NCBI GenBank assembly: GCA_963402885.1
Contig: OY727098.1
Span: 14,370,717-14,434,716, forward strand
Length of the DNA: 64,000 bases
Source: Antedon bifida
Taxonomy: Eukaryota > Echinodermata > Crinoidea > Comatulida > Antedonidae
Direction: 5' to 3'
Part shown: in pieces, positions 14,220 through 60,000 of the stretch
Numbering within the stretch: position 1 is the stretch's first letter
How the letters are laid out: every line of letters starts with the position of its first letter
Program-made: the position numbers and the translations under genes
The notes under the pieces: generated by a model
What the model was told of the DNA's origin: nothing
The model's database searches: none
The model's input: only the letters and a program-made list of their open reading frames with translations

Positions 14220-15337
14220 TTAATTTTAGGCCTAGTATTACGATTGTCCGACGTAAGTCTTTTTCACACGCGCTCCAGAATTTTCTCGCAATTTTTTTCT
14301 TTGCGGCATTTGAGTCATGGAAACGATTAGCGTACGCAATGTCTACCCAAGACGAATAGCGTAACGGATGATGATGATGCATTTTATTTGATCGGCATAT
14401 CAGTTACCTTTTATATTCACCGCCAGTTATTGAACTTGTCCTAGCCATCGCTGTTCATTTTATTTCCGAGAGAGGTACACGTGTTGATTTCCTAGAGAAT
14501 GGAATGTCAAAAATGTCTTTGGCACGCCGCTCAGATTGAAGTCTGTGCGTTGCTGCTGAAACCCACGTGCTATAGGAGAGGGGAATCACCACAAGGCCGA
14601 ATCCTCTCAGGGCAGAATCATTCCGCTACCTGCTAAATAGTAGTAAATAGAGGGATTTTACATCTCTCGGGTCTACCAGATCGAGGCGCGGGGGTGTGCC
14701 AAAATATTATTTTTATTGCTATGTTCGAGAGACAAATTAATTGTAAAGTAAACACGCTCGAAATGCCAACAAACATGGCAGTCATTTGTTGATAGTCGCT
14801 ATAACAAGTATTGTTTAAGTTGAAGACTGTCGTTCAAATTTTAAAAAATATGGCGCATACGGACGGATGCACAACTTTTGAACTTTTGTAAAAGTAACAT
14901 TTGACACCATATGACTTGAATGAGAAAAACAATCGTTACATAAAAATAAACAACATGAGTGTATACACGAATCTATTTAGATATACGCTAGGCCTATTAT
15001 AAATATATAAATAATTGATTATTAGGCCTATAATATAGCATAATAGCACGTTAAGATATTGTAAACTATATGCCTCGCATGCCTCGCACTTTTGGAAATG
15101 TTAAAATGATGCCTCGCACAAATATTTGTCGTGCCTCGCATACCTCGCACTTTGTCAACACTCAGGTCCGATGCGATGACTGTAAATCCATTCTTTCAAT
15201 TTTAAATGAAGTTTTTAAAGTTAAATATGCCTATTATGCTGGGTATTTCGAAAAAAGAAACAGCTACAGAAACAGCTATTTTAGGTACCCCGCGGTACAG
15301 TATGGAACGCCTCCTCTGCCTTCAGTTCACATTTATC

Positions 15338-15574
15338 ATGCAGTACACACCAATCGTCATGCAGTACACACCAATCGTCATGCAGTACACACCAAACATG
15401 ATGCAGTACACACCAATCGTCATGCAGTACACACCAAACATGATGCAGTACACACCAATCGTCATGCAGTACACACCAATCGCCATGCAGTACACACCAA
15501 TGGTCATGCAGTACACACCAAACATCATGCAGTACACACCAATCGTCATGCAGTACACACCAATCGTCATGCAG
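15338..15574 (+). repeat. 21-bp tandem array, 11 units
   Basis: Units read ATGCAGTACACACCAA plus a variable tail (ATCGTC, AACATG, ATGGTC, ATCGCC, AACATC). There are eleven full units and a partial one. Because the period is a multiple of three, several frames stay open through the array; this is not evidence of a protein. Confidence 0.9.
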
Positions 15575-16741
15575 TCAAATATTGCGCAGAGCCATATATA
15601 TAAAGAGTTACGACATTGAAAATTAGAAGCCATTTTTGTGTCAAAGAATTCGCACGCTGAGGGCGCGCGCGTCTCTTTTGTATAGCGTTTTCCTATAGTT
15701 CATGCATTCTTTTTAGATTTTTTTGTCTATGAAATAACGCTTATATTCCGTTTTTATTTTAGTAATTAATTTTATTAATGGTATTAATTTGGTAACATAT
15801 ATATATTGTGTCTATAATAACAAAAGAATAAATGCTAGGGCCTACATGCAAGTCAGGATACATCAAAGCATGAACCAATACAAAAAACACACAAATTCAC
15901 CCCTCTTTTTATACAGTATATGGCTCTCTGTGTGTTTTTGACACAAACTTTCAGAGACTCGTTCATCATTTCATTTGTAATAATTTGCCTTTATTATTTT
16001 AATATTGTTCATACCCTATTCAATATATTAACAAATATATCCACGACACTTTATTATTTTATTTAGTCATCAAAGCATGCATTATGAATTGAAAATATTA
16101 CATAATTGTTATTAATAGGACGTAGTTATGGGATGTTTCGTTCCAAAATCAATCAATCGAACTTTATAATGTACTAGCGCACGTGCGCGCAATATTCTTT
16201 GCCGCAAGTACTTCTTTACGCTGTGCACATCGATATTTCAACGTAAAATGTGCAATTACATTTTTTTAAATATAAGAAAAAGTTTAAAGTATTTTCTTGC
16301 TCCTATACTTTACATGCAATAACGGAGACAAGTTTGACACAAATTGATCTGCATATCACGTGACTATAATCCAATGTCGTAACTCTTTATATATATGGCT
16401 CTGATATTGCGTAATTTATACCGCCACCTATCGACAAAATCGAATATCACGTGACGTTTATTAGACGGCTGTAAAACTAAGACTATTTATTATTTCTTTT
16501 ATGGAATTCAATGATTACAATGGCCTCCTAGCCGCGCCTACGTCCTATAGATTCCAAGATTTCTTTAATAGTTTTGCGAGCCATTTTAGTCATAAAGCAC
16601 GTGCGATGTAGTAGTAGACATCGTGAGTTGCTGTAGTATACAGTTTGAATAGCCTTAGTTTTACAGTCGTCTAATAAACGTCACGTGATATTGGATTTTG
16701 TCGATAGGTGGCGGTATAAATTACGCAATATTTGACTGCAT

Positions 16742-17035
16742 GACGATTGGTGTGTACTGCATGACGATTAGTGTGTACTGCATGATGTTTGGTGTGTACT
16801 GCATGATGTTTGGTGTGTACTGCATGACCATTGGTGTGTACTGCATGACGATTGGTGTGTACTGCATGACGTTTGGTGTGTACTGCATGATTTTTGGTGT
16901 GTACTGCATGACGATTGGTGTGTACTGAATGATGTTTGGTGTGTACTGCATGACGATTGGTGTGTACTGCATGACCATTGGTGGGTACTGCATGACGATT
17001 GGTGTGTACTGCATGACCATTGGTGTGTACTGCAT
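16742..17035 (-). repeat. 21-bp tandem array, 14 units, inverted relative to the first
   Basis: The same unit as at 15338-15574 in reverse complement (GACGATTGGTGTGTACTGCAT with variants GATGTT, GACCATT, GATTTTT). There are fourteen units with a different order of variants from the left array, so the arms have gained or lost units independently. Confidence 0.9.
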
Positions 17036-17076
17036 GATAAATGTGAACTGAAGGCAGAGGAGGCGTTCCATAGTAC

Positions 17077-18215: not shown

Positions 18216-18541
18216 ATAATAAAATGATAGATCTCGAGAAAATGCAATTTTAGTTTACTTGTTACTTCGAGACTGCTCGCCGGCTTTTGGAAATTGTCTC
18301 CTACTTTTTTAACACTAGCAAGTCTGAAAATAATATTTAAAAAGTGGTCCAGAATTGGAAAACTGGTTCGAATTGTCCTTGACCACATATCTGTATTTTC
18401 ATTTTGGTCAAGATCTTGCAGTTACTTTTTGAGTAATCCTGCTAACAAACAGACACATGCGATTGAATACATATTATACCTCCTTGTAAACAATGTGTAT
18501 AATAACAATATTTAACTGGCACTTGTTTTGTATTTCCACAG

Positions 18542-19441
18542 ATGGCAGCGTCGTCAAATTACGAAAACACTCATTTGCTGACCATCGAGCCAAACACCTA
18601 CTGGTCAAATGCCACCGGCGAAGTTACGTCTTCTTATCCTGTTGATGTCGAATTTGACATCGAGGGAAACATACTTGTCTGCAACGCAACCGATGAAATT
18701 TTAAAATTTAGTCAACAAGGCAAATTTCTCTCCCGCTTTTCCGTTGGTCTTGACAGAAAAATAAATGGAATGTCGTGCAACGAAAAAGGTGAAATTTTTA
18801 TGACCGATGACAACGCAAAAGAAGTAATAGTCTGTGATGATAAGGGTCAGGTAACGTCCAATATTTCGGTACTTGATCCTTCGGAAAATAAGGAGAAGGT
18901 GAAAATCAGAGGATTGGTTGTTTCAGACAAAAGCGGAGAAGTGTTTGTGATCGTGGATTACCAAGTTCGACGACTCAAAAAAGACGGGAAATTATTGAAC
19001 AAGATAGGCATCAATGATTCAGGTTCATTATATAGAACGGGGAAATTAGTAAGTCCTTGTTACATAGCCTTAGATGAGAACCAAAACGTACTTGTAAATG
19101 ATGGCAACCAGAAACGTGTACAAGTATTTCGACCGGACGGTCAATTTGTCCGCTCTTTACGAGGACGTCGCCGAATTGAAAGGTCGGATTTGGGATGTTT
19201 TGCTGAACCGGACGGTATTGCCGTTTTTGAAGACGGAAGTGTAGCCGTTGGTTGCCGGAGAGGGTTGTTTGTTTGTAAAAATAAATCGTACGGGCCCGTA
19301 ATCCGTAGGTTTGACGATGAAAACAGTTCGGATAGCATTATGGGTACTAACGGTATTGCTACATATCGTAATGTTATGGCAGTTGCGATAACCACACGAA
19401 GTGCTGAACCTACCATTGAGCTATTTAAATATGATTATTAG
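18542..19441 (+). CDS. Intronless NHL-repeat beta-propeller protein, copy 1
   Basis: A single open frame encodes 299 aa. Six NHL-like blades can be followed: about residues 34-70 (PVDVEFDIEGNILVCNATDE), 75-108 (MSCNEKGEIFMTDD), 120-158 (RGLVVSDKSGEVFV), 170-208 (VSPCYIALDENQNVLVND), 222-255 (PDGIAVFEDGSVAVG) and 265-299. Together they make a complete six-bladed propeller of the kind at the C-terminus of TRIM2/3/TRIM32-type proteins. No RING, B-box, signal peptide or membrane segment is present, so it is a stand-alone, probably cytosolic propeller, usually a protein- or RNA-binding surface. The start is supported by the paralog at 27786, which begins at the same residue. The bases just before ATG (tgtatttccacag) look like a 3' splice site, so a non-coding or further 5' exon may exist. 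AATAAA lies at 19458 and 19475. Substrate unknown. Confidence 0.8.
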   Translation: MAASSNYENTHLLTIEPNTYWSNATGEVTSSYPVDVEFDIEGNILVCNATDEILKFSQQGKFLSRFSVGLDRKINGMSCNEKGEIFMTDDNAKEVIVCDDKGQVTSNISVLDPSENKEKVKIRGLVVSDKSGEVFVIVDYQVRRLKKDGKLLNKIGINDSGSLYRTGKLVSPCYIALDENQNVLVNDGNQKRVQVFRPDGQFVRSLRGRRRIERSDLGCFAEPDGIAVFEDGSVAVGCRRGLFVCKNKSYGPVIRRFDDENSSDSIMGTNGIATYRNVMAVAITTRSAEPTIELFKYDY

Positions 19442-20589: not shown

Positions 20590-23500
20590 AATTGGGGGCT
20601 CGTCCGGGAAACCCAATTGAAGCTTGGAAATTTAAGGAATATTGAGCCAGTGTACAAAAGATCATGCCAGACTACGTTTCGTACGGAATCGAGTGGTGTG
20701 AGGAAAAAAACTACCCCGTAGATCGATGTTTGTTGTTAGTCAGCCGAAAATTGGAAATTCCTACAAAAAGAATTTATATTTCTCTGTGTGGGTCGCTTCC
20801 AACTGAAACAGTGGACAGACGAGAGGAGGTAGATGCTCATGGCTGGCAGAAGACGCTAGTATTGGCAAAGCTTTCCATACATGTCAGAGAACTGAACATC
20901 CCAGAAACGATTGTGGTAGCCGAAGACATAGAGATGCGAACCATCATCCTAAAGAAGACAGCCGTGACTTCAACACCAATGGTATCATCGTCTCCGGCAC
21001 CAACAGCTTCTACAAACAACACTTCACCGGCAATTGATCTGTCCAGACTTTCGCTTGGTAGCAACTACCGAAAGCTCCGTGTGTTATCTGGTCACACAAC
21101 CGACAAGTCAAAAGATGAGGACAAATACCATGTTTGGCGGGCGCAAGCCAAAACACTGATAGAAGAAGCCGAAACTGAAGTCTCCCAATCGGAGAAGAAG
21201 AGAAGACTGAGAGAGGCTCTAAGATCCCCAGCATTAGATATTATAGATGACTTGAAGAAAGATAACCCGCAAGCCACCGCCAAAGACTACTTGGGCGCGT
21301 TGGAGGTGGTGTTTGGAACTACGCTTTCGGGAGAAGAACTATATCACCAGTTTGTGGGTTTAGATCAGCAAGCAGGTGAGAAGCCTTCTGATTATTTGTC
21401 CAGACTACAGTCTTCATTGAGGCAGATAGTACAAAAGGGAGGGATTACAGCAGACAAGGCCAACCAGGCGCTTTTGAAGCAATTCCTGAAGGGAACTCTC
21501 TTCGACCAACTTCTCCTCGTAGACCTGCATCTTCGAGATCAAGTTGTTAATGCACCGACCTACCTGACTCTTCTAGGACAGGTGCGTAGATGGGAAGAGG
21601 AATGCCAAGTGAAAACCAAGAAGGCAAAGGCGATTGGTGCTAGAATCGCACATGTGCCGAAGGTTGAAGCAGTAAATGATCGAAAGTCAGAACAAGACTT
21701 GGCTAGAGGCTAGGTAGGATTGAACAACTCCTGGCTAATTCAGCATGTAGCTACCAGCAACAGTCAACTGAGTCTACAACACCACCAAATTCTTCTAGCC
21801 AATCACGTCAGCCTAGACGGCCCCGACCATACTTTTGCTATAAATGTGGAGAAGAAGGACGTAGTTGCCAGAATAGCCAGAACCCAGAGCTAGTGAACGA
21901 AAAACTGATAGCTGCACTGCATCAGGGAAACGGAAGACGGCATTTGAGAAGGAGCGACCAGATGTCATCAGACGATCAGTAGCTCCGAATAGTGACATTC
22001 CACATGGTTTAGTTGGAGAGAGTATAGTTGATGTCTGTTACATTAATGGAATATGCCATCCTTGCCTCCTCGACAGCGGATCTCCCGTTATTAGTAATTC
22101 CATCTTTGAGTCTTTAAATACAAATCTGTATCCACTTTCTGACCTTGTTCTTTGGCATGGTGGAGGCGGAAAGATACCGTATCTTGGCTGGACCAAGATA
22201 GAATTAGGCTTTAACCAACATTTTGCTGGCACCCGACAGTCATTTTCAACTTTAACATTAGTAATAAAAGACAATCCACAGGCACAACACCAAATTATAA
22301 TTGGTACTAACACTGGACTTTTTGATAATTTAAGACGACGATGTAAGAAAGATGCTGGTAATCAATATTTGCAAAAGTTAAATATGCATTCCTGGTGCGC
22401 CACACTGTATAGCAAGGCAGAGAAGCACAATTAGGTAGCGAAGGGAAGTTGGGAGTAGTAAAAGCGAAAGGCTCGACTACCATTCCTGCAGGTATGACCA
22501 AGGAAGTTCAAGGTATTATACGGAACCGTTTGCGAACACAAAGACTGTGCTTATAGATTCTCTCAGTAGAGGTAATAATCGAGGTATAGTTCCAGTGGCA
22601 AGTATAGCAGAGGTTTCGCACACGTCAACTTGTAAACTAACTGTAAATATATACAATTCAACTAAGGATGATATCCATATTCCTACGGGTGCTCCGCTGG
22701 CGGAAGCAACTCTCCCAGATTTGATTTCTTCTCCAATTTATTCGACTGATGTAAATAGTAACAGTAATGTAACATGTGGAATGACTAATGTGTCCAGTAC
22801 AGCTAGTAAAGATGTTACTGTCTCTAAATTGCCGATCAAGTGGGGACAAGATGTTTCACCCGAAATAAAGACCCGCATACTAGAGAAGTTTGAAACCAGA
22901 TCGAACGTCTTTGCCAAGCATGAATGGGATCTAGGTCTTCCGTGAGCGTACTCGGAAGGTATCACCTGCTGATCTTAAAGACTTACAGAATCACATACAA
23001 GAGCTGTTAGACCATGGAGTAATTCGTGAATCTAGGAGCCGATATGCCTCTCCAATAGTACTTGTTCGCAAGAAAAATGGAAGCTTGAGGATGTGTGTTG
23101 ATTACCGACTACTAAATTCAAGGTCAGTTCCAGACCAGTACACTGTGCCTCTCATTCAAGATACAGTAGACTATTTAAGCGGCTCGAGCTGGTTCTCAGT
23201 CATAGATTTGAAATCTGGATTTTACCAAATTCCCATGAAAGAGGAAGACAAGGAGCGAACAGCATTCACCTGTCCTGTAGGTTTTTATGAGTTCGAGCGA
23301 ATGCCGCAAGGTATAAAAGGAGCACCAGCTACCTTCCAACGTCTCATGGAAACCTGTATGTCTGGACTGAATTACTTAGAAGTTCTTGTGTATATGGACG
23401 ACCTAATTGTTTTTGCCAAAACCCCTGAAGAAATGGAAACTCGTCTCCTCAAAGTATTAGATCGACTAAATGATTACGGTTTAAAGGTATCTCCAGAAAA

Positions 23501-24830
23501 GTGTCAGTTTTTCTGCAAGTCTGTCAAGTACTTAGGCCATATTGTTAGTGAAGAAGGAATCCATACTGATCCTGATCAAGTATCTTCAGTGAAGTTTTGG
23601 CCACGTCCAACTAACGCAAAAGAGTTGCGAAGCTTTTTAGGACTTACCGGCTACTATCGACGGTTTGTGGAAGGCTACTCCAAGATTGCTAATCCTCTTC
23701 ATGCCCTGTCTAGTGGTTACGGATATGCCCAGAAGCGAGGACGTGTGAAGAAACGCAACCATCAGAAATCTGATTTGAAACGAGCATCAGATCCATTTGG
23801 TGACTCATGGACCGATGAATGTGAAAATGCCTTTCAGACTTTGAAAGATAAGTTGTCTTCATCTCCAGTTCTGGCTTATGCTGATATTACTAAACAGTTC
23901 ATTCTTCACATTGATGCAAGTCGAGACGGGCTTGGTGCTGTTTTATGCCAAGAAGTTCAGGGAAAGTTGAAACCAGTAGCATACGCCAGCAGAAGTCTGA
24001 TACAGAGTGAAATTATCCAGCTCATAAGCTTGAATTCCTCGCCTTGAAGTGGGCTGTCACCGACCAATTTCGTGACTATTCGATCATGCAAAAGGAACTC
24101 AAGTTTTGACAGATAACAATCCGTTAACCTATGTTTTGACGAGCGCGAAACTTGATGCTACAGGACATAGATGGCTTGCTGCCTTAGCAAATTTCGACTT
24201 TACAATCAAGTATAAACCTGGTCGCACCAACCAAGATGCTGACGCCTTGTCCCACACTGAATAACTCAGCCTCAAAGGACATCTCAGATCAACAAAACAT
24301 CAAGGATTTATTAGAAACAAGACTCCAAGTATGTTCAAAAGATGCTATGGATGCAATATTATGCTCGGAACTCAGTTAATATTAATGAAACGTCGGGTAA
24401 GAAGAATCCACATAGGAACTTTACACCCTATGCATATTGCTTAGGCATGGGTCAAGATGAAATACCCAATGAATTCTTAGCTTCAGATATAAATCCAGAT
24501 TCTATAGATTGGAGAGAGGCGAAAGACCCAGTAATTAATAAAGTACGCAACGCAGTAACCGCTTGTCGGAAACCTGCTAAGGAATACACCGATGACAATA
24601 AAGAACTTTTCCAGATTTTTAGAGAATTCCATAGGCTGAAGATCCATGATGGTATACTATATAGACACGTAATCAAACCGGATGGCACTCCTATTAGACA
24701 GCTTGTTTTGCCTGATGAATATAGACAAAAGTCAATCAGGATGTTACACAACGAACTCGGACATCTAGGAGTTGAACGCACTACGGCATTAGCTAGAGAA
24801 AGTACAGTAGTACTAGTAGGCTATCGTTGT
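20271..24830 (+). mobile_element. Ty3/gypsy LTR retrotransposon, old and incomplete
   Basis: A fossil element. Parts in order: 5' LTR (20271-20589); primer binding site from 20593 (TGGGGGCTCGTCCGGGA, complementary to the 3' end of a tRNA-Pro-type primer); gag region about 20.66-21.71 kb whose N-terminus (MPDYVSYGIEWCEE) recalls PNMA/gypsy gag; a zinc knuckle near 21.84 kb (CYKCGEEG); an aspartic protease near 22.06 kb (LLDSGSP); reverse transcriptase about 23.0-23.7 kb (VYMDDLIVFA active site, LKSGFYQIPM); RNase H about 23.9-24.25 kb; and the N-terminal zinc-binding part of integrase near 24.7 kb. No integrase core or 3' LTR is present. The coding regions are broken, with about five or more breaks in total. 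With one LTR the age cannot be estimated from LTR divergence. It lies between the two NHL paralogs. Confidence 0.9.
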
Positions 24831-24976
24831 TATTACTCAATATCACTGCGGCACCACGTCGTTCGTGTTCTGTAACCGGCGCTTCAACAACAAAAAATAG
24901 ACGCGGTAATCATAAACTAAAGTTTATCTTCGATAACACCTAGCACGGTGTGGTATACGATACGTTTGAACATTAA

Positions 24977-27571: not shown

Positions 27572-27736
27572 GCTTTAATAAACACATTGACGTAGCCGCA
27601 ACACAAGTGAGTGCTTACCACAAGCGACAAGTAATCCATCGATCGTCGTTGATCTGTTGTGCTTAACGTCTTCCCTAGTGGTAATCAAGCCACAATGTAC
27701 TTGCGTTTTGAGTCCATGGGAACCCACTAGCTTTAG

Positions 27737-27743
27737 TATAAAT
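27737..27743 (+). promoter_or_regulatory. Possible TATA box of NHL copy 2
   Basis: TATAAAT lies 43 bp upstream of the ATG at 27786 and immediately downstream of a MITE-like end (CCACTAGCTTTAG). Transcription starting 25-30 bp downstream would leave a very short 5' leader. This is inference from position and motif only. Confidence 0.3.
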
Positions 27744-27785
27744 CGTGTTTTTGTTTTTTTTTCCCAAAAAAGTTTGAAGAGCAAT

Positions 27786-28658
27786 ATGGCTGTGGCATCA
27801 ACGAATTATAAGAACACTCACTTGCTGACCATTGAACCTGATACCTACTGGTCAAGAAGAACGACTTCTGATCCTGTTGATGTTGAATTTGACATCGAGG
27901 GAAACATTCTTGTCTGCAACGCCACTGATGAAATTATAAAGTTCAATCAACAAGGCCAATTTCTCTCCCGCTTTTCCGTTGGTCTTGACAGAAAAATAAA
28001 GGGAATGTCGTGCAACGAAAATGGTGAAATTTTTATGACCGATGACAACGCAAAAGAAGTGATAGTCTGTGATGATGAGGGTCAAGTAACTTTCGATTTT
28101 TCAGTACCACGAGATGCGGAATCACCGATGAATCTCAGAGGATTAGTAGTTTCAAACGAAACCGGAGACGTGTATGTAGTGGACAGTTACGCGGCAAAAG
28201 TTCTAAGACTCACAAAAAACGGGAAATTATTAAACAAATTAGGCATATATAATGAGATAAAGGGAAACTTAGTTTCCCCATGTTATATAGCCTTGGATTC
28301 AAATCAAAATGTGTTAGTAAACGATAAGGACCAGAATCGTATCCAAGTATTTCGACCAGACGGTCAGTTTGTCCGATCTCTACGTGGATGTCGCCACCCG
28401 GGAACGTCTCTAGAATTCTTAAATCAAGCCAGTGGTATTGCTGTTTTAGCAAACGGTACTGTAGCCGTTGGTTCACAAGCTGGGTTGTTTGTTTGTAAAA
28501 ATGAATCATACGGGCCCATAATCCGTAGGTTTGACGATAAAAACAGTTCGAATGGCATTATGGGTACTAAAGGTATTGCTACTTACCGTAATGTTATGGC
28601 AGTTGCATTATCGATACCAAATGCCGAATCCACCATTGAGTTATTTGTTGGATATTAA
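27786..28658 (+). CDS. Intronless NHL-repeat beta-propeller protein, copy 2
   Basis: A 290-aa protein starting MAVASTNYKNTHLLTIEP. The frame is open upstream to 27657, but the paralog's start and the MITE-derived upstream text both support the ATG at 27786. Six NHL-like blades are present as in copy 1. Blades 1-2 (VDVEFDIEGNILVCNATDEI, GMSCNENGEIFMTDDNAKEV) are nearly identical to copy 1, and the last blade (GIATYRNVMAVA) is too. Blade 3 and the loops around residues 105-160 and 205-225 differ and have small length changes. No RING or B-box is present. AATAAA lies at 28822 and 28955. Probably a cytosolic binding protein; partner unknown. Its upstream region differs completely from copy 1, so it may have its own promoter. 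Confidence 0.8.
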   Translation: MAVASTNYKNTHLLTIEPDTYWSRRTTSDPVDVEFDIEGNILVCNATDEIIKFNQQGQFLSRFSVGLDRKIKGMSCNENGEIFMTDDNAKEVIVCDDEGQVTFDFSVPRDAESPMNLRGLVVSNETGDVYVVDSYAAKVLRLTKNGKLLNKLGIYNEIKGNLVSPCYIALDSNQNVLVNDKDQNRIQVFRPDGQFVRSLRGCRHPGTSLEFLNQASGIAVLANGTVAVGSQAGLFVCKNESYGPIIRRFDDKNSSNGIMGTKGIATYRNVMAVALSIPNAESTIELFVGY

Positions 28659-34450: not shown

Positions 34451-34638
34451 ATAGCTCTGTCTACACTATCAAACTAATTTGACAAAAAAAAGTGTGATGT
34501 GCCCAAATATGGTAGTGATATGACCAAATATGGTAGTGATATGACATCATGTCCATGTTTGGTTTTTTTTTGCCTACAGGTAGCACATCACATTTTTTTT
34601 TTGTCACAAAGTTTGATACATGTAGTGTAGACAGAGCT
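34451..34638. mobile_element. AGCTCTGTCTACAC MITE, copy 1
   Basis: Inverted ends AGCTCTGTCTACACTATCAAACTA and TAGTGTAGACAGAGCT enclose CACATCACATTT / AAAGTGTGATGTGC. TTAA lies on the left; the right flank reads TTAC. The ATGGTAGTGATATG segment is duplicated inside. Confidence 0.75.
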
Positions 34639-48642: not shown

Positions 48643-51600
48643 TTAGATATTTGCCCATGGTTTCAACCAGGTAAAGCTGTTTTCAGTTTTTCCTGTGATG
48701 AAAATAGAAAATACAAGTGATAACTTTAAAGCATTATGTTTGTTGAAATTTGGTCAATTTCAAGGCCATAGCGAGATGTTAAAAACAGACAAGGCTTTAA
48801 TAAGAATTATTAATATAAAATACGACAATCTGTGGTGGGGAATTGGGGTGGTGGGGAATTGGGGTGGTGGGGAATTGGGGTGGGCGAGCACCTCGTCTGC
48901 CTCATGGCCCTGAATTTAGTAACAGGACCTCACTGGAAACTATTATTTTCCATGAACAGTTCCTGCAGGATACCATGTATTTTTACTTACTATGGCTCGC
49001 ATCGTACATGTACTGTATACCCACCTTCCGCCTTAATAAATCATTACCCTTCTTATTACCTTTGTGTATTGTAATAGAATGTAATTGCTTCCAGTGTTAT
49101 TTCATTCGCTTACCTGTTGGTTTATATTCACAACCTATCCAGTTATCATAGCCTAGCTCTTGGAGTATTTCATTCGCTTACCTGTTGGTTTATATTCACA
49201 ACCTATCCAGTTATCATAGCCTAGCTCTTGGAGTATTTCATTTGCTTACCTGTTGGTTTATATTCACAACCTATCCAGTTATCATAGCCTAGCTCTTGGA
49301 GTATTTCATTCGCTTACCTGTTGGTTTATATTCACAACCTATCCAGTTATCATAGCCTAGCTCTTGGAGTATTTCATTCGCTTACCTGTTGGTTTATATT
49401 CACAACCTATCCAGTTATCATAGCCTAGCTCTTGGAGTATTTCATTCGCTTACCTGTTGGTTTATATTCACAACCTATCCAGTTATCATAGCCTAGCTCT
49501 TGGAGTAGTTGCAATATGTAGGTATAATTGAGCTCCCCAGGACTGTCTGGCTCACCTCTACCAGGCACCTGCGCTATTTGTACATGACCTGAGGGAATTA
49601 GAAAATTTGATCAATGTTAGAGACAGAAATGTAATAGTACAAACGACTTACAGTGACAGGAGAGTTAATGTTCTGATATAGATATTCAGAATATTGTAGT
49701 ACCAGGGGCCTGGGCAACAATCTTAATTTCATACTAAATGTTTTTTCTGCCATTTCATCGTATTCAATATCCATATAACGTTATAGAAGTCCAGGACTGA
49801 AAGAGAATATATGTAAATTGACAGACTGCACTGCAACATTTAACCACCAGAGTAACCAATACCACGGACAATGTATTGATTTTCAGCACATATTTTTTTG
49901 TAGATATGTTTCTGACCATGCGCAGAATGAATTTCTGACTGACTAGTTGCTTGCATCCCATCATATTTGTCCATAATGAATGCGTTTTGTTGCCAGCCGG
50001 AGGTTTTCTATAATTTAAGGCCAAAAAATCATAATTTAGTATTTCCGTGTAGTACCCTGTTTATCGTCCGAAATATTAGGCTGAATTTCCGTAGTAATTA
50101 TGGACGTTCCGAACTTTGAAATAACAGTGTTATACTGGTAGCAGAGCAAAGTTTGGTGCTTTCTGAAAATTTCCTATATAATAGTAAATTTGCATCAATT
50201 GACTACAGTTATTAAATTTTATTACTGTACCGGAAGTTTCATCGGGGACTTCCCCTGATTTCTCATACGCAAAAAATGTTATCAATGTTAGTCACATGTG
50301 TTTTATTAGAATACGATCGTATTGAAAAATAGGCTACGATCGTATCGGATAGCTCACTATGGAGTGACATTTTCGGCAAACAAGAGGTACCATTTATCAT
50401 GAATTTTACGTGCAAGAGTACCATTTCCTGCAATCTAGTGGTGTTATCTAACAAAATTCGCTTCGCCACAGGCCCCATGGTGTCCACAGCCCTGGACTAA
50501 TTGGGCAACCCCTTGAAATAGTCCTAACACCGCCCCATTTTTAACTCACTGTTGAATACCAGTGGGAATCAGGCATGTCTATAATTATTACTCTCTTTTA
50601 TATGAATGCATCTTATATTGTACTGACCTATGTAGGGATACAATTCCTTAATGATATTTGTAATATTGCCATGTTGTTGTTGGACATGAAATAAATCCTG
50701 TAGGGAAAAAATAATTACAAATAAGGTAAACAAACATCTGTTGTAATTATTTTGTATAATACAGTATAATTGTAATATTATTTTCACACCTACCATCTGT
50801 AATTTTAGGTTTGGATTTTCTACTTTCTTGATAATATCAACAGCTTAAAAAAAACCAGTATATTAAGTATTATACTACATATTGAACAAAATAGAGAGTT
50901 TATTTCTTATAAATAGTAGTAGTAGTATAAACAATACAGTTTTGATACCTTGATATTGACTGTTCAAGAAATAATTTGGTACTGTTATCTTATTCAAAGG
51001 CTCTATTAATGCTAAAATACCTTCCTGAAAAAAAACCAACATATTTTGTACTTTTGAGATTTCAGCTTTATTTATTTTTTAATCCAGATTTTATAAGTAT
51101 TGGGTACAATAGAAAAAACATATTTTTTAACTTACTTACAAACAAAAGTTTTTTTAGATAATTAAAAAACATTTTTTTTAAATGGGTAGATTTAATTGGG
51201 GAGCACATGTATTATTGTCCAAGTCATGGCGAATATAATTTTGAATTAACTAATGACAATAATGGGATAATAAGATTATTTCATGCGAACCTTACTTAAG
51301 ACATCTGCAGCATACTTCAGATTCGTAACAAACTTATCTTCCATTTTTTTTAATAGATTCTCAGTCTCCTCTTCTGTATGTTCTGGTATTTTACCCGACA
51401 TGATATGCAATCTAAAAAATGATGTAAATGTACGTGTAAAAACAACATTTTTTGCAGAGCTGGCCTGGCATTTACCAATTGCTTAAGATAGCTCAGTGCT
51501 TAAAGCTCTGTCTACACTATCAAACTAGTTTGACAAAAAAGTGTGATGTGCCCAAATATGGTAGTCATATGCCATCATCATGTCCATATATGGGCACATC

Positions 51601-53567
51601 ACATTTTTTAATCACATTAAGTTTGATAGTGTAGACAGAGCTTTAAAGTGAAAAATTAAGTTTTATTTATCAAACCCATTCTTTTTATGGAATTTGTCAA
51701 ACAATGACAAATATACTGTATATATATTATTTTCGCCCCGCGGCTTTAGCCAGCTAAATCCCCAGAGGACGTAATCAATAAGAAGCTTTATTAACGCGAA
51801 AGCTATATATCTACAGCTGACAGTTTCGGAATGTTATAAACTCGACTAATTTATAGGTGCAAGCTGCTGGACCCAAAAAACGTCTAGGAAAAGAGAGTCT
51901 ATGAGGGCTCACGGTTGAACGTATTTGGGTTATCCCCCTTTGATTGGTTGACTTGACACGAATCAACACACTGCGAAAGTGAAGTCATGTTGTCCAACAC
52001 ACGTCAGGAAAATAAGGTATTGAAATTCTTTGAATTAGGTTAAATAAACACTCTTTAATATCATATTTGATTGAATTTTACAATGTTGATATACAAAATA
52101 TATTACTAAAAACTGTAATTCATACAATTGCCTACTGAGGATGCAATTTATGTACTTCGTTCGTGGCAAAAAACGATTATTTTCGGCAATGTTTTGGACC
52201 CTATATTTCGAAAACTACAAGTCAGATTTTCATAATTTTTCTTTATTTAAATATTGATACAAAATATTATAATATATAACAGGCAATGTATGCTATTAAC
52301 TTTTAATGTTGGCCAGGTCATTAGGGAGTAATTAATGCTCCTACCCTGGAATATGTACATATACTGTAGTTTAGTTTATGATTATATTTTTGTTCTGTAC
52401 AGTAGGCCAGACTATATTTACACAAAATGTTTACTACTGATTGTTAAACAAAAATAATTGTATAATAAAATAATAAATCATTATATCTCAAGAAAGAACA
52501 ATGTTAAAAAAAGTCGAGCAGCGTTTTTTGTAAGAAATAATTCTTGTTTTAACTAAAGATCATGGTACTATAAGTTAAGTCCACCATTAAAGCTAAAAAA
52601 TCATTTAATTCAAAACAGTTTTAGTACACTATTTTTTCTCACCTGGTACAATTGAGGGCCTTACAATACTTGATGGATAATGTAAGGGCATCTTGGAATT
52701 CCTTTTCTTTACCTGGAATCGCACCATGTCCCAATTCACCAGCAGACAAGTCACCTAAGGAAAGACAATAAAAGGCAAAACTAAGGCCATGTTTCCACAG
52801 CCAAAAAGTAACCGATAAAAATTAACCGATAAAGTTCCTGTGGAAATTTAGTTGAACCAATTTCACTTGAGAAAAATTAACCAAAAATTATCTCATTCAA
52901 ATCAGTTAATTATCGGATCAATGCGATAATTTTTAACCTTTAATCTGAAGGACAAATCATTGCGTTGTGATTGGGCACTTGGTTGTTCGGTAATGACTGA
53001 TCATGCGCACTTTATTTTAATTAATTCTGCTAATTTTGCTATGGCTGCGGAAATACGGCTGGTAAACGCAGCATAAGCTTTGTACAACAATTGTGTCACT
53101 GTCATATGACATTGGCAACTTCATTCTGCACAAGTTTCAAATTCCCGATAATTGCAGAGTTTTCCGATATTCTCCCGATCGCCAGCTAAAAAATGCATTG
53201 TTAGGATAATCAAAAATCATCCCGATATGTATTACTTAGGTTTTATTTATTTTTACATGTCGGAGCCTTTGCAATAGTAATTAATTTAATTAGAGTAAAA
53301 ACTGAGTTTTAGAGCACTAAACTATCTCCCTGAAAACAAACCAATTATAAGGCTCAAACGGCGCTTCATACCTGGGAAAATATTGAGGAGAACTTGTTTT
53401 TGGTTGTTTGATTCGAGGGCTTCTTTGATATCTTTCGCGGGGTATGTGTATGGAAAAGCTACTTCTACTGCTTGAAATCCGGATTCTTTTGCTGCATAAT
53501 ACCTTTGTCTTAAATCTGGCAAATCTGTGAACAGAAAGGACAAATTTGCAGCAAACTTCAAGCTCAT
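48643..53567 (-). CDS. HYI: Hydroxypyruvate isomerase
   Basis: Eight exons, in coding order 53372-53567, 52643-52754, 51291-51411, 50949-51024, 50794-50843, 50628-50697, 49454-49588, 48643-48692, give 269 aa, the usual size. The enzyme interconverts hydroxypyruvate and tartronate semialdehyde and has an AP-endonuclease-2-type TIM barrel. Recognisable strands: [67 protein letters not shown] and [12 protein letters not shown]. By analogy with bacterial Hyi the metal/catalytic residues are E151, D186, Q212 and E249; all are present. Start chosen at [10 protein letters not shown], where family similarity begins. The exon 3 donor is the less usual AAG|GTTCGC, because the stronger GTAAGG 5 bp upstream shifts the frame. 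The intron after exon 7 carries a minisatellite made from exon 7 and its donor. Confidence 0.92.
48832..48886 (+). repeat. G-rich minisatellite, quadruplex-capable, in last HYI intron
   Basis: GTGGTGGGGAATTGGGG is repeated three times, giving at least six GGGG runs spaced by four bases. This could form a G-quadruplex on the + strand, which is the template strand for HYI. It sits about 140 bp from exon 8. Confidence 0.85.
49104..49505 (-). repeat. 68-bp minisatellite containing the HYI exon 7 end and splice donor
   Basis: Six units begin at 49104, 49172, 49240, 49308, 49376 and 49444. In HYI sense each unit is 50 nt of exon 7 (CCAAGAGCTAGGCTATGATA ... AAACCAACAG, encoding [16 protein letters not shown]) plus 18 nt of intron starting GTAAGC. 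The unit at 49444 is the one joined to the rest of exon 7. Units are identical except one base in the third (CATTTGC for CATTCGC). All six keep the donor. Confidence 0.95.
51504..51642. mobile_element. AGCTCTGTCTACAC MITE, copy 3 (in HYI intron 2)
   Basis: This is the best-preserved copy. AGCTCTGTCTACACTATCAA and TTGATAGTGTAGACAGAGCT form perfect ends, with TTAA at 51500-51503 and 51643-51646. The 139-bp body is almost one hairpin (GTGTGATGTGCCCAAATATG pairs with CATATATGGGCACATCACA). Confidence 0.9.
51905..52300. repeat. Dispersed repeat shared with 32455-32950 (in HYI intron 2)
   Basis: Same orientation as the copy at 32455 and with several internal deletions. It extends from CTCACGGTTGAACG to AACAGGCAATGTA. 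Confidence 0.65.
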
Positions 53568-57000: not shown

Positions 57001-60000
57001 CTCAATAGCCGCACTAATCTTCGTGAATTAGCAGAAGCAAGTCCTAAAAAACGTCCAAAATCATCAGTAAAACCCAAGAAGATTGTATCCACACCACCAA
57101 CATCTTCATTGAGTGTACCATTCTCCAAACCTGCATTGAATGAGGTTAAAGAACAAGAGTTTGTTAGACGTTCTTCAGCTCGACTGAGGGTTAATGAACA
57201 ACAAGAGTTTGTTAGACGTTCTTCAGCTCGACTGAGGGTTAATGAACAACAAGAGTTTGTTAGACGTCCATCAGCTCGACTAAAGTCATGCAAGGTCATC
57301 CCAAGAAGCATAGGAAAAATTGAATATCAGGAGGTTTGGAAGAGTTCTGCACTCACAAGGTACTTTACTGTATATATTTTGAGTGAATAGGGAGTTTTTG
57401 AATAACTGAACAATGCTATTTTTAATGTTGCATTATTCGTTCTAATTTTAATTGGAGGCATAAGATGTAAAAGAGCATAAGGCTGACATACAGGGTATGT
57501 ATCGCACAAAGCATCACTCATACAGCCTTGGCCTATGTTATACCCTTTACTGTGATAATTACAAAATAATTCTTTTTATTGCTTAATTTAAACAGTAAAA
57601 CTCTGTTTCTTTATCAGGCTTCAGCGTATTACAGGAGTATCAACGATTGAGGATTTTGTCAGAGTCGATGAGATTCAAGCTTGTGATATTATTCAAAACA
57701 ACTTAAAGATCAGTCACAACAAAATTGTGATCATTGAAGACAAGTCCCAGGACCTACCGCATTGGGTGTTGTCTGCCATGCGTTGCCTTGCTCATTGTAA
57801 ATCAACTTTTATTTATTTTTAAAAATTTCATACGCATCCAACAGCGAGCAACTTGCCAATTACAGGATGGATAATCTATTTCATAATTTATCGTGCTTAT
57901 ACAGTAAACTAAAGGATTCATTGAGTATCTTAATATATTTTTAATTTTACGTGGTGATGAATAACAATGTCCAATTTATTTGACAGGGCCTGACAGAGCT
58001 GATGAAACTGTATTGCCTTCTTATCCTGGCTTTGAAAGAGATGTTTTCAAGACTGTTAGTAATTACTTTCACAGCCAACCTGAACCTCTCTTGACCTATA
58101 ACCTTTATGACATCATAACTGGGTCATTTTGTAAGTATTACATTCATCTACGACCATCACTTTTGGTTTATTATTTTACTTTGCATGAAAGGTGTGAGTA
58201 TTCAATACAGTGTGGAAACAGGTCTAAGCCAGCAGCTCCAAGTAACATTTTTGAATTTACAGAAAGATTTCCTACCTCTGCACAGTACAAATGATGATAA
58301 AATATTTGAATTTTTATTTTCAGAGAATTTTGTTATGTTTGTTATTTTAACTATTATTAACACTACAACTAAACTCTGCATGCCAAAAAATGTAATAGTA
58401 CAAATTAAAGTATAGAATTTTATGGGGTTGTGTTTAGTAGGACCATTTTATTCAAGTTATTTTTATTTTAAAACATTGTTCTATGTTGGAAAATTATAAT
58501 CAAGATGGGTTAGAATACTTCAGTCCTGATTCCTTTTTTTTGTTCTACTAACAGCATGTATTTTCATTTGTTTTGTGTTATCATTTGTTTAATCTGCAGT
58601 AATCTGCGACCGACGTGATCGGGGCCTTGACGATTCCCCTTCTGATCTAACAACTCCACCAAGTGTAACTGCCACCAATCGTCTTAACTCATTTGGCTCT
58701 GTGGAGAATTTGATGCTTGACATGACTATGGGGTGGACACCACTAACCAAGTTCACTGGTCAGTCGTCCGAAGATGTAAACCGGGGTGGATTTGAAAGAC
58801 GGTCAGTTAATCGTCAACCGTATGTGACCCCTGTCAATACAAAAAGTAGAAATCAGTCGCTGACTAGTGGGAAAGGTAATGATTGTTACTCCGGTACAAT
58901 CTTCTGTCTAACATCTCAAAAAATAATGTCCCCTGGGGAATTGAGCCTAAACGAGGTTCCTAGTCAAAATCAGAATGAAAGTTATGTTTCAGAAATGTCC
59001 AAAAATGAACATAATCAAGAAAGCCATCCACAAAGTGTCTCTCCAGAGGGTTATAGTAATATCTATACGCAAGATGAACCTGCCACATATTTACAGCCAA
59101 GTAATATCATTGATGATTATGGTTTTCTGCCAGCTCAGTATTTCAGTCCAGCAAAGAAGACCAGTGAGCATTCAAAACGCTATTCTTCTGATTCAGACCT
59201 GATGAACTGTCGCTCTTTTCTTGATAATAGTAAACACAGTTTGAAGTCTGATCAACCTGTAAATGATGAGCGCCCTCTAAATGAGTTACACTATGCATCT
59301 ACCTCGTGTCTAGAAACGAAGGACTCGTCCCTGTCTTCAGAAGAATGCTCGTTCGAATTCAGTCGTACCAGAAGTGGTTCATTCAGAAACCGTCGCAAGT
59401 TCAGTTCTTTGACCAACATTGACATTAAACCAACAGCAAATGATGACAAACGTAAAAGAACTTCAAAGAATAATTTAGGGATCTCAAAAAAATTTGGGTC
59501 AGCATCTGAAATATTTCAGAAAATCTTCACAAAAAAGACAGAAAGAACTAAATCTAAGTGGTCTGTACATGAACCAAAGTTGAATGAAAAATCAATGTCT
59601 TTTAACTCTAATGTAAAACTTCAGCAATGGAATTTGGCAGAAAGAAGTACAGAACGACATGTTTTAGAAGGTTGTAGAAGACAAACTAGTCCGCCCTATC
59701 CGTCACCAATACGTGCAACTTTATCTCAACCCGTCCTCGTTGGTAAACGCAATGATTCTAGTACTTCTCTTAACTCCTTCCAGTCTAAGCACAATGAATC
59801 AAATACCTCAGTTGGTAAACAAAATACCTCTAGTCCCAGTCTTGGCCAACAAGCAAATGTTCAGAAGTGTTATGTGTCGGGTTCAAATCTTGATTCATTT
59901 AATCCAGTTCTCACTTGTAAACAAAATTACTCTGGGTCTAGCCTGAATTGCCTCAGGCCTGCCTTTGCCAGTCAACACACTCACTCTGGGACTCACTCTG

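Follow-up and report, generated by a model that had tools for sequence, protein, structure and literature searches.

Which of several identical 5′ splice sites is used when they lie one after another at the end of a single exon, and does their number matter to the gene? The question is raised by a minisatellite on the minus strand at positions 49100–49507 of the window (the whole 64,000-nucleotide stretch of DNA analysed), where the end of exon 7 of a HYI-like gene is repeated together with its splice donor. TRF, applied to the 64-kb window, placed the array at 49098–49507 with a period of 68, 6.0 copies, 99% matches and a score of 813, the highest among 26 rows (runner-up, 494). Cutting 49100–49507 into 68-mers gave six head-to-tail units with a total of one base difference: five of the six are identical, the exception being copy 4 (counted along the transcript), where GTAAGCG has become GTAAGCA. 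Both procedures bear out the six-copy repeat of an exon end and its donor described in a first-pass annotation, and they correct its extent, from 49104–49505 to 49100–49507, and the make-up of each unit, from 50 nt of exon plus 18 nt of intron to 52 nt of exon 7 plus 16 nt of intron 7 when counted from CTCCAAG (54 and 14 nt when counted from TA). The GTAAGC donor, said earlier to be kept in every copy, is present as CAG/GTAAGC in 6/6 units.

Unit 1 (49440–49507) contains the authentic exon end and the donor of the normal splice, which begins at 49453. Units 2–6 fall in the modelled intron 7, with donors at 49385 (unit 2, 49372–49439), 49317 (unit 3, 49304–49371), 49249 (unit 4, 49236–49303, the sole variant), 49181 (unit 5, 49168–49235) and 49113 (unit 6, 49100–49167). 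The window contains six instances of the sequence CAGGTAAGC, all within the array, and no 14-mer of the 68-bp unit was found on either strand of the window beyond 49081–49519. Searches of the whole window with Rfam at gathering scores and for tRNAs returned 0 matches each, and comparison of the array junction with viral contigs returned 0 exact matches.

The host gene was modelled by hand from the sequence with GT-AG introns, and the model is supported by Pfam, NCBIfam and PDB matches. It occupies 48643–53567 on the minus strand and comprises eight coding exons encoding 269 aa: exon 1 (53567–53372), exon 2 (52754–52643), exon 3 (51411–51291), exon 4 (51024–50949), exon 5 (50843–50794), exon 6 (50697–50628), exon 7 (49588–49454; 135 nt, phase 1-1), which includes Glu249 according to the model and its alignment with 3ngf and 1k77, and exon 8 (48692–48643), which completes a Gly codon and adds 15 residues and the stop. 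The model protein matched AP_endonuc_2 in Pfam (E = 1.6e-40) and, over residues 4–264, the NCBIfam hydroxypyruvate isomerase family TIGR03234 (E = 6.1e-84), at a score of 281 bits that is below the equivalog cut-off of 353; NF043033 (2-oxo-tetronate isomerase) scored above TIGR03234, at 301 bits, still below its cut-off of 325. The nearest PDB chains were 3ngf and 1k77 (residues 4–267), and Glu249 pairs with the Glu at residue 240 of 1k77_A (position counted by hand on the alignment), which we take to be catalytic. A full-length family match with a conserved active-site region supports the earlier naming of the gene as HYI, in the form "HYI-like" that suits bit scores below the equivalog cut-offs.

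Among the seven donors of this gene, that of exon 7 is closest to consensus (8/9 positions) and second in U1 pairing, at −11.0 versus −11.1 kcal/mol for exon 2. The donor modelled for exon 3 (51285–51295) is weak, with AAG/GTTCGC matching 5/9 positions at −4.1 kcal/mol; a GTAAGG 5 nt upstream is little better (6/9, −5.0) and, joined to modelled exon 4, leads to a stop after 152 aa. Array-like copies appear to be peculiar to exon 7 within the gene: a 40-nt ungapped comparison found none within 1.5 kb of the other 13 HYI splice sites, where the best match was 27/40, as against 40/40 when donor 7 was compared with three of its copies. Intron 7 also holds a second tandem array at 48832–48883, a perfect 16-bp repeat of 3.2 copies (GTGGTGGGGAATTGGG), and intron 2 holds a MITE-like inverted-repeat element of 141 bp at 51503–51643 with ends AAGCTCTGTCTACACTATCAAACT, which has CAAATATGGTA in common with 21-bp repeats near 34494 and 43802.

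Elsewhere in the window, frames neighbouring HYI match RFX DNA-binding, BCD and DEP domains, and the structure of the gene suggests an animal host. Downstream of the DEP-domain match, an open frame contains a 48-bp array at 57152–57281 (2.7 copies, 97% matches) that encodes an in-frame 16-residue repeat, VNEQQEFVRRSSARLR, and may represent a minisatellite in the coding region of the adjacent gene. One 21-bp unit is present in 11.4 copies at 15336–15575 and in 14.4 copies at 16735–17037, in opposite orientation and about 1.2 kb apart; they may be the repetitive termini of a single mobile element. Retroelement-like open frames occupy 20646–24875 (limits and Gypsy-like label assigned by eye), with reverse transcriptase and RNase H domains within 22935–24044. 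Similar long open frames at 18506–19441 and 27591–28658, whose weak beta-propeller-type Pfam matches are nearly all below curated cut-offs, look like gene duplicates.

The coding outcome differs sharply between the first donor and the rest. Model translation of all six donors agrees with the earlier claim that only the exon-proximal one gives the normal protein: donor 1 yields the 269-aa product and restores a C-terminus that aligns with the solved relatives, and donors 2–6 do not. With each of the latter, translation continues past donor 1 into unit 2 and yields 262 aa without the normal 15-residue end, the length being the same in every case because the TAG falls inside unit 2. The tail added by read-through of donor 1 is GKRMKYSKS, nine codons before the TAG, which accords with a stop predicted within about ten codons. 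This TAG lies 39 nt upstream of the junction when donor 2 is used (extended exon, 203 nt) and 107, 175, 243 and 311 nt upstream with donors 3, 4, 5 and 6, respectively. Retention of intron 7 also gives 262 aa, and skipping of exon 7 (135 nt) keeps the frame and gives 224 aa. By the 50–55 nt rule of nonsense-mediated decay, which comes from mammals and may not hold in this animal, messages spliced from donor 2 could escape decay and those from donors 3–6 would not.

Can the six donors be told apart? On the two strands of the window, 12 GT sites match 8/9 consensus positions, half of them (6/12) within the array, and none matches 9/9. A single 9-mer is shared by all six array donors, as are a U1 pairing energy of −11.0 kcal/mol and the 52 nt of exon before the donor; the copy 4 variant, at +7, is outside the scored 9-mer. 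Predicted accessibility ranged from 0.021 to 0.043 with windows of 150, where copies 3 and 4 were highest, and from 0.018 to 0.025 with windows of 200, where donor 1 was lowest; these are small predicted differences, in which we discern no clear trend. The donors had been described as identical, and that holds for the scored 9-mer and U1 pairing, with similar predicted accessibility; the converse idea, that they are unlike in strength or structure, was rejected on the same measures. Because U1 pairing is equal and predicted accessibility similar, nothing marks the later copies as improved or suppressed, and it is therefore mainly position that can distinguish the six. Exon definition would favour donor 1, with an exon of 135 nt over exons of 203–475 nt. 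In experiments with duplicated identical 5′ splice sites, the copy closest to the 3′ splice site has often been reported to be preferred, and this preference would instead favour donor 6 (421-nt intron). What has been shown is the anatomy of the repeat, the identity of the donors and the protein that each donor would give in the model.

Real competition is consistent with six donors that pair identically with U1 and have similar predicted accessibility, and with an early TAG that all the later ones share, at 39 nt before the junction for donor 2 and at 107–311 nt for donors 3–6. A substantial share of splicing would then use donors 2–6, and copy number would set the amount of full-length HYI, the yield dropping as copies are added; a truncated but stable protein would come from donor 2 and decay targets from donors 3–6, if the mammalian rule applies. 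Use of repeat donors has a precedent in IFI6 (PMC4526556). We nonetheless consider competition of this kind unlikely, given the lancelet genes in which tandem repeats across exon-intron boundaries, termed "mirages", have been described (PMC3087553, PMC3902484): data on these are said to suggest regular splicing, and the inferred preference for a 135-nt exon would pull in the same direction. Considerably more doubtful is the proposal that the array is a mirage outside cephalochordates that serves as a copy-number dial on HYI, with inter-unit splicing or re-splicing healing errors tracelessly in the mRNA; we would put its chances very low. Output would fall with copy number because each extra unit adds an equal donor leading to a stop. 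Since every unit closes its exon part with AACAG/GTAAGC, whole units would be lost when one unit is spliced to another, or when a wrongly spliced message is spliced again, and the normal sequence would be recovered.

In that motif an AG adjoins the GT in every unit, which brings up a reading of the intron-gain type, with the AG within array units acting as acceptor. A model of this sort is discussed for lancelet globins (PMC3087553), and fission yeast introns across tandem 24-bp AGGT repeats are cited in PMC4974935. The pyrimidine tract preceding the array AG is poor, however, at 0.47 versus 0.80 for the exon 8 acceptor and 0.67 for the exon 7 acceptor, and stops occur in all three frames through the array. 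Array units were set aside as acceptors on the strength of the tract, and we find the reading barely credible.

The uniformity of the units bears on the age of the array and on its reality. One change was counted in 340 copied sites (95% Poisson interval, 0.03–5.6 changes). Since the copies are near-identical although copies 2–6 should drift freely, the array is recent or is kept uniform; dating from copy differences says only that it is recent or homogenised, and the one base difference among six units upholds the first-pass annotation on this point. Duplication at a TA microhomology, proposed at the same time, was set aside: given this base composition, 18% of random junctions would match at two or more bases, so that the match is weak evidence and within chance. 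Near-identical 68-bp units over 408 bp can also be mis-assembled, in which case the true copy number would differ or fewer units would have been put together wrongly, and one lancelet mirage was apparently assembled aberrantly in a genome draft, according to a figure legend (PMC3087553). We judge such an artefact improbable here. The copies come to a clean 6.0, copy 4 has a private variant and the flanks are consistent with the gene model; the junction would, moreover, still require at least one duplication.

Based on these results, it appears probable that the array is a near-neutral, recent minisatellite of the mirage type in which donor 1 is the main splice site used, some splicing perhaps leaking to the donors that follow; the main use of donor 1, the neutrality and the recency are what we infer. 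Slippage or unequal exchange presumably produced the array: a 68-bp stretch across the boundary of HYI exon 7 and intron 7 would have been duplicated in tandem, and a recent expansion or homogenisation would have brought it to six copies, leaving units 2–6 intronic. Donor 1 would be the one mainly used, giving the 135-nt exon and full-length HYI, and the later donors would be little-used pseudo-donors. Any use of a later donor would produce the 262-aa form without the conserved C-terminal segment, and messages from donors 3–6 would be expected targets of nonsense-mediated decay under the mammalian rule. This explanation accommodates six units with one difference, a C-terminus aligned to solved relatives that donor 1 alone restores, six donors equal in U1 pairing and similar in predicted accessibility, the finding that 0/13 other HYI splice sites have such a copy within 1.5 kb, and the same anatomy in lancelet genes, where the data are said to suggest regular splicing. 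It sits less easily with the preference reported for whichever donor is closest to the 3′ splice site, here the donor of a later unit, and with the fact that IFI6 repeat donors can really be used (PMC4526556). By the lancelet precedent, which may not carry over to this host, tuning by competing donors seems less likely than a near-neutral mirage; anatomically the competing-donor reading is sound, but the tuning itself is hypothetical. Copy-number polymorphism of the array would be expected by analogy only.

As a feature of the HYI gene itself, the array is probably ordinary. Its value is that of a natural experiment on donor choice by position: it presents six naturally occurring, identical 5′ splice sites, all of them preceded by one and the same 52-nt exon sequence. 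The kind of feature is already known, because lancelet mirages and the IFI6 donor minisatellite have been described; the HYI array is a new instance of that kind, and no report of it was found for the HYI gene. The GC content of the window is 35.2%. Branchiostoma has a GC content of about 41%. PMC7351957 reports 33.2% in a feather star and 33.7% in a sea urchin and calls these similar to the values of hemichordates and most chordates, so that GC content does not discriminate between a lancelet and another host. A literature search drawing mostly on titles and the beginnings of abstracts, and on few subscription papers, found no mirages outside lancelets beyond IFI6 and intron-gain cases, and we make no claim of absence. 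For earthworm metallothionein (PMC12783039), minisatellites within introns are described, along with duplications of the fourth exon that the final transcript lacks, and the passages on these repeats state no array across an exon-intron boundary; the DDX3Y paper deals with an upstream minisatellite.

In human IFI6 (G1P3, 6-16), a minisatellite provides multiple splice donors (Turri et al. 1995, cited in PMC4526556), and two downstream repeat units are said to serve as donors, giving isoforms (PMC4526556). IFI6 and HYI are alike in having a minisatellite at an exon end, and IFI6 units act as 5′ splice sites; the used IFI6 donors give isoforms, however, whereas every later HYI donor gives a premature stop. 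The units also differ in size, IFI6 units being 12 nt long and those of HYI 68 nt. The potato RdRp case, as outlined in PMC4974935, resembles HYI in having tandem copies with adjacent AG and GT, and differs in that in HYI an existing donor has been copied into its own intron with no sign of a good new acceptor.

Lancelet mirages are the closest relatives. They are described in Adh3 and the globins BflGb6 and BflGb9 (PMC3087553), to which PMC3902484 adds TnC together with imperfect duplications of its own in PGBD5, and their units measure 10–72 bp (Adh3), 60 and 108 bp (PGBD5), and 150–160 and 157 bp (globins) (PMC3087553, PMC3902484). The authors take the Adh3 data and their globin RT-PCR to suggest that regular splicing is undisturbed, and they add that the splice signals in the repeats could still serve as cryptic sites (PMC3087553); Adh and TnC mirages are stated to generate no aberrant mRNAs (PMC3902484). 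Length instability is reported at Adh3 and BflGb6 (PMC3087553, PMC3902484), with somatic instability detected at Adh3 and 6 and 3 units in two haplotypes of BflGb6 (PMC3087553). The HYI array likewise repeats across an exon-intron boundary, with a splice signal in 6/6 units where lancelet mirages, as described, have them in many, but it sits in a different gene. It differs from BflGb6, in which the acceptor side rather than the donor side is duplicated and units are 81–100% identical, less uniform than those of HYI, and agrees with BflGb9, in which the 3′ boundary of an exon is duplicated. Were its host something other than a lancelet, mirages would extend beyond that group, and this would be the main new point to emerge from the comparison.
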